This document shows, piece after piece, positions 10,667-46,484 of a DNA stretch of 64,000 nt. The DNA lies in assembly GCF_022227845.1 (NCBI RefSeq), contig NZ_JAJNQN010000001.1, forward strand, positions 248,001 to 312,000, given 5' to 3'. This DNA is from Ectothiorhodospira lacustris (GTDB lineage: Bacteria; Pseudomonadota; Gammaproteobacteria; Ectothiorhodospirales; Ectothiorhodospiraceae). How positions within the stretch are numbered: position 1 is the first letter of the stretch; each line of letters opens with the position of its first letter. The notes under the pieces were generated by a model, which had not been told where the DNA came from, did no database searches, and saw only the letters and a list, made by a program, of their open reading frames with translations. A program made the translations under genes and the position numbers.

Positions 10667-11206
10667 CTACAGGGGCACCACACCCCCCATCCACCACAGA
10701 CTGCCCAGGGCCACGGCAGCGCCGATGGCGGCACCGGCCAGCACATCGGTGGGATAATGCAACCCCAGCACCAGACGGGACAGGGCCACCATCAGGGTGA
10801 AGGGCAGCACCAGCCAGGCCCAGACCGGTAACCAGGCCAGCAGTACCACGGTGAAGGCCACCGCATGCAGGGTATGGCCGGAAGGAAAGCTGAACCGGTC
10901 CAGCGGCGCCACGTTCAGGCTGATGTCGCGGCTGTGCCGGAAGGGCCGATCCCGCCCTGTGGTTGCCTTCAGGATCTTGTAGATAGGCAGGCACAAAAGC
11001 CCCACCAGGGCCATGTGCAGGCTCACATGGAGGGCCTGCATGCCGTGGATCAGGGGCAGGCAGAGCATCAGGGTGTACCAGAAGACCCCGTCCCCCAGCC
11101 GGCTGACCACCGCAAATACCCGGTTGATGAGCCGCCGATGCCCCATGCGGTTGAAGACCAGGCAGACCGGAATCTCCGCGTCCGTCACTCGCTGAATCAG
11201 TCCCAT
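10667..11206 (-). CDS. PAP2-family membrane lipid phosphatase
   Basis: About 179 residues from ATG 11206 with several hydrophobic segments. The three phosphatase signatures are present: KATTGRDRP, FPSGHTLHA, and SRLVLGLHYPTDVLAG with its catalytic histidine. Family members dephosphorylate phosphatidic acid, phosphatidylglycerophosphate or undecaprenyl diphosphate at the membrane; which applies here is not visible. The start codon lies inside the end of the glycosyltransferase gene (10-nt overlap), so it is the last gene of the olsB-olsA-glycosyltransferase unit. In that setting it may generate diacylglycerol as acceptor for the glycosyltransferase (inference). Confidence 0.88.
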   Translation of the reverse strand: MGLIQRVTDAEIPVCLVFNRMGHRRLINRVFAVVSRLGDGVFWYTLMLCLPLIHGMQALHVSLHMALVGLLCLPIYKILKATTGRDRPFRHSRDISLNVAPLDRFSFPSGHTLHAVAFTVVLLAWLPVWAWLVLPFTLMVALSRLVLGLHYPTDVLAGAAIGAAVALGSLWWMGGVVPL

Positions 11207-12429
11207 GTTGACCTCTCTTGAGCACACTCGAAAAACAGCGCTTCCAGCCGATCATGGATGCAGCGCCAGTCCACCGACTCGGCCACGACTCGGGCCTGTT
11301 CGCCCAGGCCCCGGATCCGTGCGGGATCGGTGATCAGTTCCCGCGCCAGACCGACGAACCGGTCCCGGTCATTGAGGGGCGGCAGCAGTCCGCTCTCACC
11401 GTGGCGCAGATGCTCCCGCGGCGCTGCATAATCAAAAGCCACCACCGCCAGCCCCGAGGCCATGGCCTCCAGGACCACGTTGCCGAAGGTGTCAGAGGTG
11501 GAGGGAAACAAAAAGATGTCACCACTGGCATAGTGACGGGCCAGATCTTCCCCGGTCCGGGTGCCCACCAGGATCAGGTCCGGGTGCAGGCGCCGCAGTT
11601 CCGCGGCCTCGGGGCCGTCCCCCACCAGGATGAAGCGGGCCCGGGGCTGGTGGGACTGCATGGCCCGGAAGGCCTCCACCGCCAGGGACAGATTCTTCTC
11701 CGCCGCCAGACGCCCCACATGGATCACCGCGGGATCGGCGTCTTCCAGCCCCCAGTCCCGACGCAGCGCAGGGTCCCGCCGGGTGGGATTGAAAAGTGCC
11801 GTATCCACCCCCCGGGCCAGTACTTTGCAATTCCGGTATCCCTGCGCCGTCAACTGGGTGCGCAAGGACTCGGTCGGCACCAGGGTGCAGCGGGTCCGGT
11901 TATGGAAGCGGCGGAGAAAATGACCGATGGCAGGCTCCAGAAACCCCACCCCGTAGTACCGGCTGTAGCTGTGAAAATTGGTATGAAAACCGCTGATCAC
12001 CGGGATCTTGAGGTGCCTGGCGGCGGCCACTGCGGACCCCCCCAGGGGGCCTTCCGTGGCCACATAGATCACGTCGGGCGGATGCTCGTGCCAGACATCC
12101 AGGATCGCACCCCGGGCCGGTAGTCCAAAATGCAATCCCTTGTAGCCCGGGACGGGAAGACCGGCCGTCGCCTGTTCCCGCAACGGTCCCTGTTCACCAC
12201 CGACATCCCCGCGGTACTGGCGGGGACGAATGAGATGGACCTGATGCCCTCGCGCCAGCATGCCCTGCACCATGTGATGCAGGGTGTGGGCAACGCCGTT
12301 GATCTCCGGAGGATAGGTTTCGGTCACCACGGCGATATGCAGCCGGGGCGCCTCATCGCCATCGGCATGGGACCCCTGGGTGAAAATCCGGTCCCAGTTC
12401 AGGGATGAGGCGCGCCCGGCGGCGTTCAT
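11197..12429 (-). CDS. GT4 glycosyltransferase, probable glycolipid synthase
   Basis: A 410-residue GT-B glycosyltransferase. The N-terminal half has VVTETYPPEINGVAHTL and HTNFHSYSRYYG, the acceptor-side pattern seen in lipid glycosyltransferases of the MgtA/SqdX type. The C-terminal group 1 domain has VGRLAAEKNLSLAVEAF, LVGDGPEAAELRR and the nucleotide-sugar motif FPSTSDTFGNVVLEAMASG. It overlaps olsA by 4 nt and the PAP2 gene by 10 nt. Together with ornithine-lipid genes and a lipid phosphatase it most plausibly glycosylates diacylglycerol to make a phosphorus-free membrane lipid, analogous to Agt of rhizobia. Donor sugar and acceptor are not determinable from the sequence. Confidence 0.8.
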   Translation of the reverse strand: MNAAGRASSLNWDRIFTQGSHADGDEAPRLHIAVVTETYPPEINGVAHTLHHMVQGMLARGHQVHLIRPRQYRGDVGGEQGPLREQATAGLPVPGYKGLHFGLPARGAILDVWHEHPPDVIYVATEGPLGGSAVAAARHLKIPVISGFHTNFHSYSRYYGVGFLEPAIGHFLRRFHNRTRCTLVPTESLRTQLTAQGYRNCKVLARGVDTALFNPTRRDPALRRDWGLEDADPAVIHVGRLAAEKNLSLAVEAFRAMQSHQPRARFILVGDGPEAAELRRLHPDLILVGTRTGEDLARHYASGDIFLFPSTSDTFGNVVLEAMASGLAVVAFDYAAPREHLRHGESGLLPPLNDRDRFVGLARELITDPARIRGLGEQARVVAESVDWRCIHDRLEALFFECAQERSTWD

Positions 12430-13196
12430 GAGGGAGAGTCTCCTTCGAGAGGGGGCGGGAGGCCGTCATGGAACGCCTCCCTGACGGCCGCTTCGGCCGC
12501 CCGGGACAACCCGCGACGATCCGTACCATCGACAGGGATCGGCGGCATGAAACTGAGCGCCACGTCCACCCGCGGCATGGCCAGCAGGCGCAGGGCATGG
12601 GTGAGGAAATGCTGGTTGTCCACGAAGGCCGCCGCATGATCCGCCGGGGGCAGGTAGCGGATGGACACCGGCTGTACCGGGCAGCCCGCGCTCTGGGCGG
12701 CCTGGAACAAGCGGGGATGAAAACGTCGTACCTCCTTGCCCGGGGTGGTCGTCCCTTCGGGAAACACGTGCACCGAGTGGCCGCGGCCCAGATGTTCGGC
12801 CATCTGATCGGAGACATGGGAGGCGGCACCCGAGACCCCGCGATGGATGAACAGGGTGCCGTTGCGGCCGGACAGCCAGCCGATCAAGGGCCAGCGCCGC
12901 ACCTCGGACTTGGACAGGAAGCCCACCGGGGCATAGGCCCCCAGGACCGGGATATCCAGCCATGAAACATGGTTGGAGACGGACAGGACAGGTCCGGTGG
13001 ACGGCTGACCACTCACCTGAATACGGACACCAAAAAGACGGCAGAAAACCCGGTACCACCACTGGATGGCACGCCGGAACCGCTGATCGGGCATCCCGGC
13101 CTCGTTGGGCCGCCCCAGCAGCAGGGTCAGGATCACGGCGATGAACAGATGGAGGATCAACGGGATCAACCTATAAATGCATCTGATGGCTTTCAT
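12426..13196 (-). CDS. olsA: lyso-ornithine-lipid O-acyltransferase (PlsC-like)
   Basis: Acyl-CoA/ACP-dependent O-acyltransferase of 256 residues with an N-terminal membrane anchor (LIPLILHLFIAVILTLLLG). The acyltransferase block I NHVSWLD fits HX4D, and the substrate block FPEGTTTPGKEVRRFHPRLF is present. ATG 13196 is chosen although the frame extends to 13319, because the extension lies wholly inside olsB. Its position immediately after an OlsB-type gene, overlapping by 26 nt, identifies it as OlsA, the second step of ornithine-lipid synthesis, rather than a phosphatidic-acid-forming PlsC. A general 1-acyl-glycerol-phosphate acyltransferase is the alternative. Confidence 0.82.
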   Translation of the reverse strand: MKAIRCIYRLIPLILHLFIAVILTLLLGRPNEAGMPDQRFRRAIQWWYRVFCRLFGVRIQVSGQPSTGPVLSVSNHVSWLDIPVLGAYAPVGFLSKSEVRRWPLIGWLSGRNGTLFIHRGVSGAASHVSDQMAEHLGRGHSVHVFPEGTTTPGKEVRRFHPRLFQAAQSAGCPVQPVSIRYLPPADHAAAFVDNQHFLTHALRLLAMPRVDVALSFMPPIPVDGTDRRGLSRAAEAAVREAFHDGLPPPLEGDSPS

Positions 13197-14004
13197 GACA
13201 ATCCGCGGATAAGGGTGTCCGCAGAAAATGCCGCCGGTAGCGCGCGGGCACAAGCCCTTCGTCCAGAAAAATGAACACGTCCGCCACGTTGAAGTCCGGA
13301 TCCCAGCAGGGCTCGGCACCGATACGCGCGCCCAGACGCAGATAGGCCTTGAGCAGGGGCGGCATGATCACGGCGCCCTCGCATCCCGCCACCTGCCGAG
13401 GTAACGGCAAGCGGGACCGAACCAGCAAGGTTTCCGGGTCCGGGTGACGGCCCTTGAGCCTTTCCATGATGGCGTGGGCCTGATGCCCGCCATCATGGAG
13501 TCCGATACTGGCGCAACCGATCAGATACCGGATGCGATGGGTGGCCATGAACCGCCCCAGTCCGGACCAGAGCACGGCGATGGCCGTACCACTGCGATAG
13601 TCGGGATGAACGCAGGTGCGGCCGATTTCCATGATCCGCCCGGGCAGACGATCCAGGCCGTCCAGTTCGAACTCGTTCTGAGAATAAAAGCCGCCGGCGA
13701 GGCGGGCCTCGGTGTCCTTGAGGATGCGGGTATAGGCCACCACGGCCCCGGTGTGGCCGTCACGGACCAGCAGGTGATGGCAGTAGCGGTCGTAGCGATC
13801 ATGGTCCAGCCCCAGCAGGGCCGCCGCCGCGGGCAGGGTGGCCCCCATTTCCCGGGCAAAGATCTGATAACGCAGACGCTGGGATGCCAGCACGTCATCA
13901 TCACAGGTGGCCAGGGACACACTCAAGCCGGGGCGCGGGACATTCCAGTCATCGGCTGCGGGCGTGTCGGCGGTCTGCATGGCCTTGTCATTATCCATCG
14001 TCAT
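13171..14004 (-). CDS. olsB: L-ornithine N-acyltransferase (OlsB)
   Basis: First step of ornithine-lipid synthesis: transfer of a 3-hydroxyacyl group from ACP to ornithine. The 277 residues have the hemolysin/OlsB GNAT layout: SQRLRYQIFAREMGA near residue 41, YDRYCHHLLVRD, VVAYTRIL, and the acetyl-CoA-like motif IMEIGRTCVHPDYRSGTAIAVLW near 125. The C-terminal DPDFNVADVFIFLDE is characteristic. ATG 14004 has no clear ribosome-binding site, and the predicted Pho-box promoter would place the transcript start almost on it, so internal starts at 13998 or 13980 are possible. It heads the olsB-olsA-glycosyltransferase-PAP2 unit. Confidence 0.88.
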   Translation of the reverse strand: MTMDNDKAMQTADTPAADDWNVPRPGLSVSLATCDDDVLASQRLRYQIFAREMGATLPAAAALLGLDHDRYDRYCHHLLVRDGHTGAVVAYTRILKDTEARLAGGFYSQNEFELDGLDRLPGRIMEIGRTCVHPDYRSGTAIAVLWSGLGRFMATHRIRYLIGCASIGLHDGGHQAHAIMERLKGRHPDPETLLVRSRLPLPRQVAGCEGAVIMPPLLKAYLRLGARIGAEPCWDPDFNVADVFIFLDEGLVPARYRRHFLRTPLSADCHESHQMHL

Positions 14005-14010
14005 GGGGCC

Positions 14011-14066
14011 ATGCTAGGGAGCGCGCCTTTCAGGGATGTGAAGACGTCGTGACGATTACGTGACCC
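14011..14066 (-). promoter_or_regulatory. candidate PhoB-type promoter of the ols operon
   Basis: Read on the minus strand, 7-mers GGGTCAC (14060-14066), TCGTCAC (14049-14055), TCTTCAC (14038-14044) and a degenerate CTGAAAG (14027-14033) recur every 11 bp. A 10-bp gap then leads to TAGCAT (14011-14016). Direct 7-mers with 4-bp spacers and a -10 box 10 bp beyond the last one is the geometry of E. coli Pho boxes. It lies just upstream of olsB; ornithine-lipid genes are PhoB-controlled in other proteobacteria. Confidence 0.5.
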
Positions 14067-20241: not shown

Positions 20242-21069
20242 TCAAGAGGTGGAGACACCGATCCGGGCCGCCAGCGGCAGATCCGCTGCAGCAGCCGTGA
20301 CCGGCACCGGTTGGATGACCTCGGTCCGGGTGTGATCCGACCAGTGCAGCAGGTGCAGATTGCCCTGAAAATCCTCGGTCAGGGCGGTGCAGTGCTCCAC
20401 CCAGTCACCGTCGTTGCAGTAAAGCACCCCTTGGATGGACTCGATACCGGCCTTGTGAATATGGCCGCAGATATAGCCGTCGTAGTCACGGCGCACGGCC
20501 TCCCGGGCCGCGGCCTCCTCGAAGCGGCGCATGTAGCGCCGAGCCTTGGTCACCCGCCCCTTCACATGGGCGGACAGGGACCAGTAGGGGTGGCCCATAT
20601 AACCCCGCCAGCGGTTGTAATGCCGGTTCAGCCGCAGCAGCGCCTGATAGGCCCCATCCCCCAAGGCCTTGACCAATCGATTGTGCTTGACCAGGGCATC
20701 GAACTCATCACCGTGGCTGACGAGGAAGCGGCGACCGTCGGCGGTCAGATGCTCTGCGTCCAGACGCACCTTGACGCCCTGGAATTCCGTTCCGGCAAAG
20801 ACACGCAGGGCACCATCGTGGTTACCAGGGATATAGATCACCCGGGTGCCCGACTGTGCCTTGTCCAGGATCACCTGGATCACGGCACTGTGCTCGGCGC
20901 TCCAGTACACACGACGGCGCATGCTCCACAGATCGAAGATATCACCGACCAGGTAAAGATGATCGCATTGGGAGGATTCCAGAAAATCCAGCAGGTATTC
21001 GGCACGGCATTCCCGGGTACCCAGATGAACATCGGAAATGAAGATGCTGCGGCATTCGATGGTGGCCAT
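20242..21069 (-). CDS. plcP: metallophosphoesterase, PlcP-like (UDP-diacylglucosamine hydrolase-like)
   Basis: Calcineurin-type phosphoesterase of 275 residues. Metal-ligand blocks are FISDVHLGTRE near residue 9, YLVGDIFDLW near 39, YIPGNHDGALR near 76, VSHGDEFDA near 115 and YICGHIHKAGI near 197. The FDLW and HGDEFDA segments resemble LpxH but the length and C-terminal half fit the LpxH-like group containing PlcP, the phospholipase C that cleaves membrane phospholipids to diacylglycerol under phosphate starvation in rhizobia, marine bacteria and Pseudomonas. There is no signal peptide. A Pho-box-like array lies just upstream, favouring PlcP over lipid A synthesis. The symbol is provisional. 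Confidence 0.68.
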   Translation of the reverse strand: MATIECRSIFISDVHLGTRECRAEYLLDFLESSQCDHLYLVGDIFDLWSMRRRVYWSAEHSAVIQVILDKAQSGTRVIYIPGNHDGALRVFAGTEFQGVKVRLDAEHLTADGRRFLVSHGDEFDALVKHNRLVKALGDGAYQALLRLNRHYNRWRGYMGHPYWSLSAHVKGRVTKARRYMRRFEEAAAREAVRRDYDGYICGHIHKAGIESIQGVLYCNDGDWVEHCTALTEDFQGNLHLLHWSDHTRTEVIQPVPVTAAAADLPLAARIGVSTS

Positions 21070-21090
21070 GGCGGTGCTGTCCCCGGTTCG

Positions 21091-21146
21091 GAATAGGGGA
21101 CAGGGTGAACCAGCCGGATGACGGGGAGATCACGGCACCGTGAAGG
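21091..21146 (-). promoter_or_regulatory. candidate PhoB-type promoter of the plcP-like gene
   Basis: On the minus strand, CCTTCAC (21140-21146), CCGTGAT (21129-21135), CCGTCAT (21118-21124) and a degenerate CTGGTTC (21107-21113) recur every 11 bp. A 10-bp gap leads to a weak -10, CTATTC (21091-21096). This is the same geometry as at the ols operon. Individual units are degenerate, so the call depends on periodicity and on the gene's proposed role. Confidence 0.42.
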
Positions 21147-21241
21147 AAACGTGGCAATACCTGAACGGCAGGCGTTACCAGGCAAAGCCTGGTAACAGGA
21201 AGGTAAGGGAAATCGGCTATCCGCAACTATCGACCAGTCGC

Positions 21242-21881: not shown

Positions 21882-22241
21882 TTACATCAGCACCAGCGCC
21901 CACACCGCCACGGCATGGAGGATGGACAGCAGCACCGCCGCCGAGCCCATGTCCTTGGCCCGGGCCGAGAGGTCATGGAATTCCTGGCCGATGCGATCAA
22001 TGGCCGCCTCGATCCCGGAGTTCAGCAACTCCACGATGAGGATCAGGAACAGGCTGCCGATCAGCAGGGCCCGTTCCACCCCGTCCGACCCCAGCCACAA
22101 GGCCAGGGGCACCAGGACAATCATCGCCAACAGTTCCTGGCGGAAGGCGGCCTCATGACGGAAGGTGCTTCTCAACCCCTGCCAGGAATACCCCGCCGCC
22201 TTGATGATCCGGGTCAGACCCCGGTTACCACTGTAGGCCAT
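21882..22241 (-). CDS. dgkA: diacylglycerol kinase
   Basis: Small inner-membrane kinase that phosphorylates diacylglycerol to phosphatidic acid, recycling diacylglycerol produced by membrane reactions. The 119 residues have the DgkA pattern: an amphipathic N-terminus with GLRSTFRHEAAFRQE, then three hydrophobic helices, and the catalytic ELLNSGIEAAIDRIG segment near residue 70. It starts on the last base of gcvPB and is therefore the distal gene of the gcv transcript. With the nearby plcP-like and glycosyltransferase genes it could modulate a diacylglycerol pool (inference). Confidence 0.93.
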   Translation of the reverse strand: MAYSGNRGLTRIIKAAGYSWQGLRSTFRHEAAFRQELLAMIVLVPLALWLGSDGVERALLIGSLFLILIVELLNSGIEAAIDRIGQEFHDLSARAKDMGSAAVLLSILHAVAVWALVLM

Positions 22242-42418: not shown

Positions 42419-43474
42419 TTAGAAGTTGTGGGTCACGCCGACGGAGAAGCCGGCCGGGTTGTCGCCGGTGTCAAACGGGGTAACACCTTTGCCCTTGCCA
42501 CTGCCGTTCAGACCGTAAGCAGCACCAGTGCCGACACCACTCTCATTCAGCACCTGGGCAAACACGGCATACACACCAGTACGACGGCTCAGGCTGTAGC
42601 CAGCACCCAGGGCATACATCTGGGCGTCGGTATTGTCGCGATCATCCTCACCGGCGTAGGTGTAGGAACCCATCAGGTAGGCCTGACCCAGCTGGTACTT
42701 GGCGCCCAGATGGAAGGCATCACGATCACCGATATCGTCCACCTTGGAGTCGATGTTTTCGTACATAGCGGCCAGGGTCAGGGCATCAATCTGATAGGTG
42801 CCACCCACCTTCCAGGCACGGGCGTTGTTGTCGTCATCCCAGTTGTTCAGCTGCTCATAAGCCACGGTGACGTACATCGGACCCTGGGTGAAGGTACCTG
42901 CCAGAGAGAAGGCCTTCTGGTCATTGGCGTCGGCATTGCTGGCGCGATCATCAGAAACATCGGTCGTGTAGGAAGCCATGAACCGCAGGCCATCAAGGTC
43001 CGGGCTCAGGTACAGCAGGGTGTTGTCATTCCGGCGATAGAAGGACACATCGTTGCTAGCCATACGGCTGGTAACGTGGTTGACGTCACCCAGGGTATCG
43101 GCAAAGAAGTTCAGCGGCAGGGTGGCCAGCTTGTAGGGGGTGTCGTGCTTGCCGACGCGAACTTCACCGAAACCACCGGCCAGACCCACGTAGGTGTTAC
43201 GGCCAGTCAGGTTGCTGCTACCGAAGGCGGAGCCGCTGTCACCCTGCAACCCTGCCTCAATCTGGAACACGCCGCGCAGGCCGTTGCCCAGGTCTTCGGA
43301 ACCACGCACGCCCAGACGAGAGGAGTTGGAGGCCAGCTGGTGGGTGGTGTCTTCACCGTTGTCCACGATGTCCGTGGACAGGTTCAGGCGGCCGTACAGA
43401 GTGGTGTCGGCCATGGCGGCGGCGGGCAGGCCCATGGCGGCGGCGACTGCGAATACCAGTACTTTCTTTTGCAT
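42419..43474 (-). CDS. outer-membrane porin (Gram-negative general porin type), porin 1
   Basis: Trimeric beta-barrel porin of 351 residues with a signal peptide (MQKKVLVFAVAAAMGLPAAAMA) followed by TTLYGRLNLSTDIVD. SNSSRLGVRGSEDLGNGLRG, FQIEAGLQ, GRNTYVGLAGGFGEVRVGKHDTPYK and the terminal SVGVTHNF with C-terminal phenylalanine are typical of the Porin_4 group (Omp32-like). AGAGGAA lies upstream of ATG 43474. It has a predicted sigma-54 promoter, upstream activator site and strong terminator, and lies directly downstream of a sigma-54 activator gene. The solute is unknown. Confidence 0.9.
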   Translation of the reverse strand: MQKKVLVFAVAAAMGLPAAAMADTTLYGRLNLSTDIVDNGEDTTHQLASNSSRLGVRGSEDLGNGLRGVFQIEAGLQGDSGSAFGSSNLTGRNTYVGLAGGFGEVRVGKHDTPYKLATLPLNFFADTLGDVNHVTSRMASNDVSFYRRNDNTLLYLSPDLDGLRFMASYTTDVSDDRASNADANDQKAFSLAGTFTQGPMYVTVAYEQLNNWDDDNNARAWKVGGTYQIDALTLAAMYENIDSKVDDIGDRDAFHLGAKYQLGQAYLMGSYTYAGEDDRDNTDAQMYALGAGYSLSRRTGVYAVFAQVLNESGVGTGAAYGLNGSGKGKGVTPFDTGDNPAGFSVGVTHNF

Positions 43475-45340: not shown

Positions 45341-45385
45341 TGTTCATCACAAGTTCATAGGGCTTTAACGCACCCTTAATAACCA
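45341..45385 (+). promoter_or_regulatory. candidate PhoB-type promoter of porin 2
   Basis: TGTTCAT (45341-45347), AGTTCAT (45352-45358) and CTTTAAC (45363-45369) recur every 11 bp. The last unit is the same 7-mer as in the E. coli phoE Pho box. TTAATA (45376-45381) or TAACCA (45380-45385, exactly 10 bp beyond) would be the -10. It implies phosphate-starvation induction of porin 2. Confidence 0.5.
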
Positions 45386-45461
45386 AAAGACATAGTCGCC
45401 CCGGGTTTTGAGGCACAGGACGCTGTCTCTTTTTTACAACAACACTTGGGGAGTCTATTTC

Positions 45462-46484
45462 ATGCAGCACAAAAAACTTCTGGTGGCGATGGTCGCCGCC
45501 GGCCTGTCCATGCCCGCCCTGGCCGCGGCTGATATCACCATCTACGGCCGCGCCCACCTGTCCGTGGACCTCCTGGATGACGGCGCCGATTACAGCGAAG
45601 TGAACATCTCCAGCAACTCCAGCCGCCTGGGCTTCAAGGGTGAAAGACAGTTCACCCCGGAACTGACCGCCATTTTCCAGATTGAGCAGGAAATCCAGTT
45701 CGACAGCAGCGAGTCCGGCGAAACCTTTACCACCCGCGACACCTTTGCCGGCCTCAAGGGCGACTGGGGGATGCTGCGCATCGGCCGCTTCGACACCTCT
45801 TTCAAGCGCGCCCGAGGCCCTGCCAATTTCTTCGGTGATCAGGTGGGGGACCTGCGCAATATCGCCCGCACCACGGATCACGGCCGCTTCGATGAGCGGT
45901 TCCGCAACACCCTGCATTACCGCACCCCCACCCTGAACGGCTTTGTCTGGGATCTGGATTTTTCCACGGATCACCGCAATCAGACCACCGCCGAAGGGGG
46001 TGACAACCGGGCCTATAGCACCTCATTGAATTACAAAAACGGCCCCTTCACCGGCGCGGTCGCCTTTGAGCGCCAGAACATCGAAAACAGCCCCAACCCC
46101 GAAGCCTGGAGACTGGCGGCGGCTTATCAGATCACCCCGGAATTCACGCTCGCCGGCTTCTACCAGAAATCGGAATCGGCCGCTGAAAACGAAGGCACGG
46201 TGGTCGGCGTGGCCGGTCAGTACAGGCTGAGCCCCACCATGTATCTGAATGCCCACTACTTCGCCCTGGATTCGGATCTTACGGATAAGGATGCCAATCT
46301 CTTTGCCCTGGGCCTTGAATATCGCGTCGATCGCGCCCTGCGGTTCTATGGCAACTTTGCCATGATGGACAATGATGATGCGTCCGCACTGAACCCCTGG
46401 AGCCAGGCCCGTACCTCCGGTCCGAGCGGTGTCGCCGGCGAGACCGCTACCGCCTTCTCCCTGGGCATGCGATACGACTTCTAA
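45462..46484 (+). CDS. outer-membrane porin (Gram-negative general porin type), porin 2
   Basis: Second porin of the same group, 340 residues. The signal peptide (MQHKKLLVAMVAAGLSMPALA) is followed by ADITIYGRAHLSVDLLDDGA and SNSSRLGFKGERQFTPEL. FQIEQEIQFDSSESGE, TFAGLKGDWGMLRIGRFDT and the terminal SLGMRYDF follow, again ending in phenylalanine. ATG 45462 follows GGGGAG. It is related to porin 1 on the other side of the sigma-54 activator but has a different control region. A strong terminator follows. Confidence 0.9.
   Translation: MQHKKLLVAMVAAGLSMPALAAADITIYGRAHLSVDLLDDGADYSEVNISSNSSRLGFKGERQFTPELTAIFQIEQEIQFDSSESGETFTTRDTFAGLKGDWGMLRIGRFDTSFKRARGPANFFGDQVGDLRNIARTTDHGRFDERFRNTLHYRTPTLNGFVWDLDFSTDHRNQTTAEGGDNRAYSTSLNYKNGPFTGAVAFERQNIENSPNPEAWRLAAAYQITPEFTLAGFYQKSESAAENEGTVVGVAGQYRLSPTMYLNAHYFALDSDLTDKDANLFALGLEYRVDRALRFYGNFAMMDNDDASALNPWSQARTSGPSGVAGETATAFSLGMRYDF

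Follow-up and report, generated by a model that had tools for sequence, protein, structure and literature searches.

In Pseudomonas aeruginosa, PlcP and the glycosyltransferase Agt form a pair with Pho boxes (PMC8528852), and there, as in other cases, plcP is followed by a gene of the GT4 family (PA3219-PA3218; PMC8528852; PMC4796936). In P. putida BIRD-1 (PMC5082522), PlcP, OlsA and OlsB are Pi-responsive and PHO-dependent, and a DagK is also Pi-responsive; in Acinetobacter, a Pho box is present at olsB (PMC11828411). The participation of PlcP, Agt and OlsBA in the phosphate response, with PlcP and OlsBA in the Pho regulon of Pseudomonas, is therefore already known; the grouping of olsBA, a glycosyltransferase (GT) gene and a PAP2 phosphatase gene (olsBA-GT-PAP2) plus plcP is less familiar, and the parts of the literature on both genes that we covered held no account of an olsB-plcP adjacency. 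Here we analyzed a stretch of 64 kb from Ectothiorhodospira lacustris (the window), which carries the genes of such a set (Table 1). The PlcP candidate shares with the PlcPs of P. aeruginosa (PA3219), Sinorhizobium meliloti and Phaeobacter MED193 the LpxH-related class, the Pho-box promoter and the association with a GT4 enzyme, but its activity is predicted only, and no GT gene follows it: its downstream neighbour is the convergent znuA, and the GT gene lies 8 kb away in the olsBA-GT-PAP2 unit. In P. putida BIRD-1 the same enzymes (PlcP, DagK, OlsA and OlsB) are joined in one phosphate response, whereas here dgkA has no Pho array and the ols unit includes a glycosyltransferase and a PAP2 phosphatase. 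We consider it highly probable (about 0.9), judging from sequence, that plcP encodes an intracellular phospholipase C-type enzyme that would be switched by PhoB together with the olsB unit, and whose diacylglycerol would go to glycolipid. Such a plcP gene fits known biology and is not surprising.

Table 1. Positions of the plcP locus, the ols unit and their upstream elements in the 64-kb window
Feature	Position	Strand	Remarks
plcP	20242-21069	minus	predicted PlcP-type metallophosphoesterase, 275 aa, ATG at 21069, stop codon ending at 20242; assigned by profiles, tree, class residues and model
Four-unit Pho-box array of plcP	21118-21157	minus	TTGCCAC, CCTTCAC, CCGTGAT, CCGTCAT; 11-bp period
Fourth unit of the sequence-only reading	21107-21113	minus	CTGGTTC, unit-matrix score -7.0
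Perfect 10-bp hairpin	21174-21196	minus	between HbpS-like gene and plcP
dgkA, prokaryotic diacylglycerol kinase	21882-22241	minus	start overlaps gcvPB stop; no Pho array
Pho-box array and -10 of olsB	14011-14066	minus	GGGTCAC TCGTCAC TCTTCAC CTGAAAG, 10 bp, TAGCAT
olsB, ornithine N-acyltransferase homologue	13171-14004	minus	NCBIfam and Pfam; likely in the same regulon as plcP
olsA, lyso-ornithine lipid O-acyltransferase homologue	12426-13217	minus	NCBIfam and Pfam
GT4 glycosyltransferase	11197-12429	minus	nearest homologue in the genome of the plcP-adjacent Agt type
PAP2-family phosphatase	10667-11227	minus	Pfam; adjoins the GT gene in relatives too

The plcP product has no obvious signal peptide and belongs to the calcineurin-like family (Pfam profiles PF00149, 48.6 bits, and PF12850, 51.8 bits), with the dinuclear metal site of this fold complete (DxH, GD, GNH, H and GHxH). 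The sequence-only reading had described it as an LpxH-like metallophosphoesterase that resembles PlcP, and both halves of that description held. The best solved matches in a fold search with its AlphaFold2 model (pLDDT 86.3) were LpxH structures (Z 18.7 to 6pib), so that the likeness to LpxH is real at the fold level, and the seven metal-ligand positions (D13, H15, D43, N83, H119, H203 and H205) are common to PlcP and LpxH. This shared fold and metal site, together with weak matches to the LpxH profiles, would also be expected if the protein were a second LpxH-type UDP-2,3-diacylglucosamine hydrolase for lipid A synthesis. However, the candidate scored only about 45 bits (44.7-45.2) with the LpxH profile TIGR01854, against a cut-off of 190.35, and 51.1 with PRK05340, against a cut-off of 134. 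A proper lpxH is found elsewhere in the same genome (contig C8, 39855-40538; 292.6 bits with the LpxH model), as the check for a separate gene suggested by the sequence-only reading revealed, and 53 of 58 relatives likewise carry an lpxH over the cut-off, with the plcP-type genes present in addition and far lower on the LpxH model. The phylogeny suggested at the same time placed the target outside the LpxH clade: in a maximum likelihood tree of 96 rows, built by a quick search without bootstrap, 66 PlcP-type proteins, the target included, were split from 30 LpxH proteins, E. coli LpxH (b0524) among them, with 100% SH-aLRT. The characterised PlcPs (PA3219, SMc00171 and MED193_17359) are not among these rows, and the PlcP clade is anchored indirectly by the plcP-agt arrangement, since in 48 of the 80 named plcP loci the gene that directly follows plcP belongs to the GT4 family, as described for PA3219-PA3218. 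The LpxH substrate motif GNRDF is replaced by GNHDG in the target; GNHD was found in 97 of 97 PlcP rows and GNR in 29 of 30 LpxH rows, and the residues specific to the PlcP side were H84 (R in LpxH), R89, D124, K170 and N219. Finally, Pho arrays stand before plcP-type genes and before none of 30 lpxH genes. The LpxH identity was thus rejected, and we regard it as very improbable; by its sequence features the ORF is a PlcP-type metallophosphoesterase and not LpxH.

The promoter region was analyzed with a Pho-unit matrix trained only on the pstS and phoB promoters of the genome and its relatives, no plcP or ols sequence being included, and the scans covered the window and stretches around the genes of interest. 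The pst operon was recognised by the ORF run that follows pstS; the pstS model TIGR00975 scored weakly, presumably because the pstS proteins here are of another subtype. The pstS and phoB promoters carry up to four 7-bp units with an 11-bp period, placed 10 bp before the -10. Upstream of plcP, the array with an 11-bp period that the sequence-only reading had claimed is indeed present, and with 22.1 bits it has the best four-unit score on either strand of the window. When no -10 was required, the ranking was plcP (22.1), olsB (21.3), a porin gene (20.1) and then 12.1 bits; with its -10 included, the olsB array reached a composite score of 26.5 bits, the top of the window. The units before plcP are TTGCCAC (21157-21151), CCTTCAC (21146-21140), CCGTGAT (21135-21129) and CCGTCAT (21124-21118), the last three scoring 6.7, 2.4 and 7.7 bits. 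Of the positions given earlier, 21140, 21129 and 21118 each mark the lowest coordinate of one of these last three units, whose starts on the minus strand are 21146, 21135 and 21124. The fourth, at 21107, was not borne out (Table 1), although it may perhaps be a decayed Pho unit, and TTGCCAC had been missed. The gap of 10 bp to a -10, also claimed for plcP, is found at olsB, at pstS and in the three congeneric loci L013-L015, where 10 bp separate the plcP array from GATAAT; at the plcP of the window no good -10 was seen, the unit closest to the start site is a degenerate one, and the composite model of array plus -10 in the earlier register gave -1.7.

Such degenerate units, with a proximal one that fails, could also have come together by chance in an intergenic region rich in G+C. 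In forty order-3 Markov replicates of the window, the median best score was 11.1 and the 95th percentile 15.8, and one replicate reached at least 20 bits; with other periods (8-10 and 12-15 bp) the best score was at most 13.7 bits, and 6 of 200 permuted-column unit matrices reached 20 bits. Against chance, moreover, the array recurs before plcP in relatives of dissimilar sequence, is specific when compared with control genes, and is kept as a block in the two closest relatives (G003 and G002), in which the sequence further upstream is not. A chance origin was ruled out on the simulation, the period controls and the gene controls, and we give it hardly any weight; by sequence, the plcP array consists of tandem 7-bp units with an 11-bp period like those of the genome's own pst and pho promoters. 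No canonical sigma-70 promoter or intrinsic terminator was found between 20100 and 22300, and no Rfam match was obtained around plcP (E up to 0.5). The perfect hairpin upstream of the array (Table 1) is possibly the end of a transcript upstream of plcP. Between the array and the start of plcP there is an inverted repeat, CTGTCCCC ... GGGGACAG (21077-21103, minus strand); it is mostly kept in the two close relatives and contains the likely ribosome-binding site. As a strong hairpin it was discarded (z -1.65; 17 of 200 shuffles folded equally well).

We then compared the arrays and neighbourhoods across genomes. Arrays of at least 14 bits were found upstream of plcP in 17 of 22 context loci, 35 of 56 relatives and 36 of 79 named loci, and upstream of olsB and of the GT gene in five of seven cases each, the two GT exceptions being genomes in which GT lies inside the olsBA unit. 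No array of this strength was seen upstream of lpxH (0/30), PAP2 (0/9), dgkA (0/10) or the other scanned window genes. This distribution indicates that the Pho array tends to precede whichever gene leads its unit. Elsewhere in the window, a four-unit Pho-box-like array (45341-45380, plus strand; 20.1 bits) precedes the ORF of an outer-membrane porin (45408-46484, plus strand), which is likely, from its sequence, to be a further member of the phosphate regulon; a three-unit Pho-box-like array (43638-43610, minus strand; 22.5 bits) is found before a second porin ORF (42419-43474, minus strand). In three congeners (G006, G007 and G009; loci L212, L210 and L211), a pstS-like gene occurs at a distance of 7-8 kb from plcP, which again connects plcP with phosphate genes. 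As regards the neighbours, GT was directly downstream of plcP in 16 of 56 relatives, in addition to the named loci mentioned above, and olsB was directly upstream of it in 2 of 56 relatives and in 10 of 80 named loci, the latter chiefly from Betaproteobacteria. The order GT-PAP2 ... olsB-plcP was found in G006 and G009, plcP divergent from GT-PAP2 in G005, and olsB-olsA-GT-plcP in Thiocapsa imhoffii; plcP, dgkA, olsB, PAP2 and GT form a single run in G019, and plcP, dgkA, PAP2 and GT lie together in G017. None of 30 lpxH genes had olsB, GT, dgkA, PAP2 or olsA next to it. The proposal that plcP is a partner of the ols operon thus gains from the Pho-type array shared with olsB and from the conserved adjacency to ols and GT genes, and a functional link of plcP to the genes for synthesis of lipids without phosphorus (ols and glycosyltransferase) is supported at the sequence level.

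The place of dgkA, which had been proposed to recycle the diacylglycerol, is less clear-cut. Its position near plcP is conserved, with dgkA directly upstream of plcP in 7 of 56 relatives, but it overlaps gcvPB and lacks a Pho array in all 10 genomes, and it was dropped as a co-regulated gene; what stands of the proposal is weak. Beginning at the gcvPB stop, dgkA may share a transcript with the glycine-cleavage genes and not with plcP. Its occurrence beside plcP in some relatives and the Pi-responsive DagK of P. putida BIRD-1 make a role possible by analogy; the link observed here is only positional.

The next question is where the diacylglycerol would go. The GT of the window belongs to the same GT4 family, and follows the same regulon logic, as the Agt glycosyltransferases of Agrobacterium, Pelagibacter and P. 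aeruginosa (Agt1/Agt2), and within its genome it comes closest to Agt (112.7 bits against a plcP-adjacent Agt-type enzyme), though the next protein reached 100.6 bits. However, it is only 31-37% identical to most plcP-adjacent Agt-type enzymes, against 49-50% to a separate group encoded near ols or plcP genes (Thiocapsa and Tepidicella), so it may make another product. Its best NCBIfam match was the model of GlcNAc-phosphatidylglycerol synthase (141.7 bits, under the cut-off of 480). GT was present in 23 of 23 plcP-positive family genomes and in 10 of 14 plcP-negative ones, and olsB, more loosely tied to plcP, in 18 of 23 and 7 of 14, counts that are not corrected for relatedness. The presence of GT in those 10 plcP-negative members means that PlcP is not its sole possible supplier of diacylglycerol. 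These ten genomes, the GT-PAP2 adjacency that is kept where plcP sits elsewhere, the NCBIfam match and the distance from most Agt-type enzymes would all suit a Pho-regulated PlcP that acts mainly as a phosphate scavenger and feeds other enzymes, while the ols-linked GT uses diacylglycerol derived from PAP2 or another acceptor, such as phosphatidylglycerol or ornithine lipid. We think this unlikely, given that no plcP-positive family genome lacks GT, that GT is the best Agt homologue, and that GT and plcP are adjacent or divergent in several relatives. Still more doubtful is that the ols-linked GT4 and PAP2 form a distinct Pho-controlled branch of lipid remodelling, whose glycolipid would differ from what Agt enzymes are known to make (it might, for instance, derive from phosphatidylglycerol or be a glycosylated form of ornithine lipid) and to which PlcP could, but need not, supply diacylglycerol.

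We favour, then, a PlcP that is switched by PhoB together with the olsB unit and whose diacylglycerol passes to glycolipid. The PlcP class of the protein, the likeness of the array to the genome's own pst and pho promoters and the conserved neighbourhoods are computational results, from which the following sequence of events can be proposed. At low phosphate, PhoB would bind the four-unit array of plcP and the olsB array, so that plcP and the olsBA-GT-PAP2 unit would both be switched on. PlcP, which probably strips the phosphate head groups from membrane lipids under phosphate shortage, would hydrolyse phospholipids, releasing diacylglycerol and a phospho-head group, and phosphate would be saved. 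A glycosyltransferase, most likely the GT4 enzyme of the olsBA-GT-PAP2 unit, would then glycosylate the diacylglycerol, and OlsB and OlsA would make ornithine lipid independently of diacylglycerol. The analysis indicates that clade, motif and promoter allow a clean separation of LpxH-like proteins from PlcP, and it places plcP, olsBA, the glycosyltransferase and the PAP2 phosphatase in one phosphate-starvation regulon, as predicted from sequence, in this gammaproteobacterial family.
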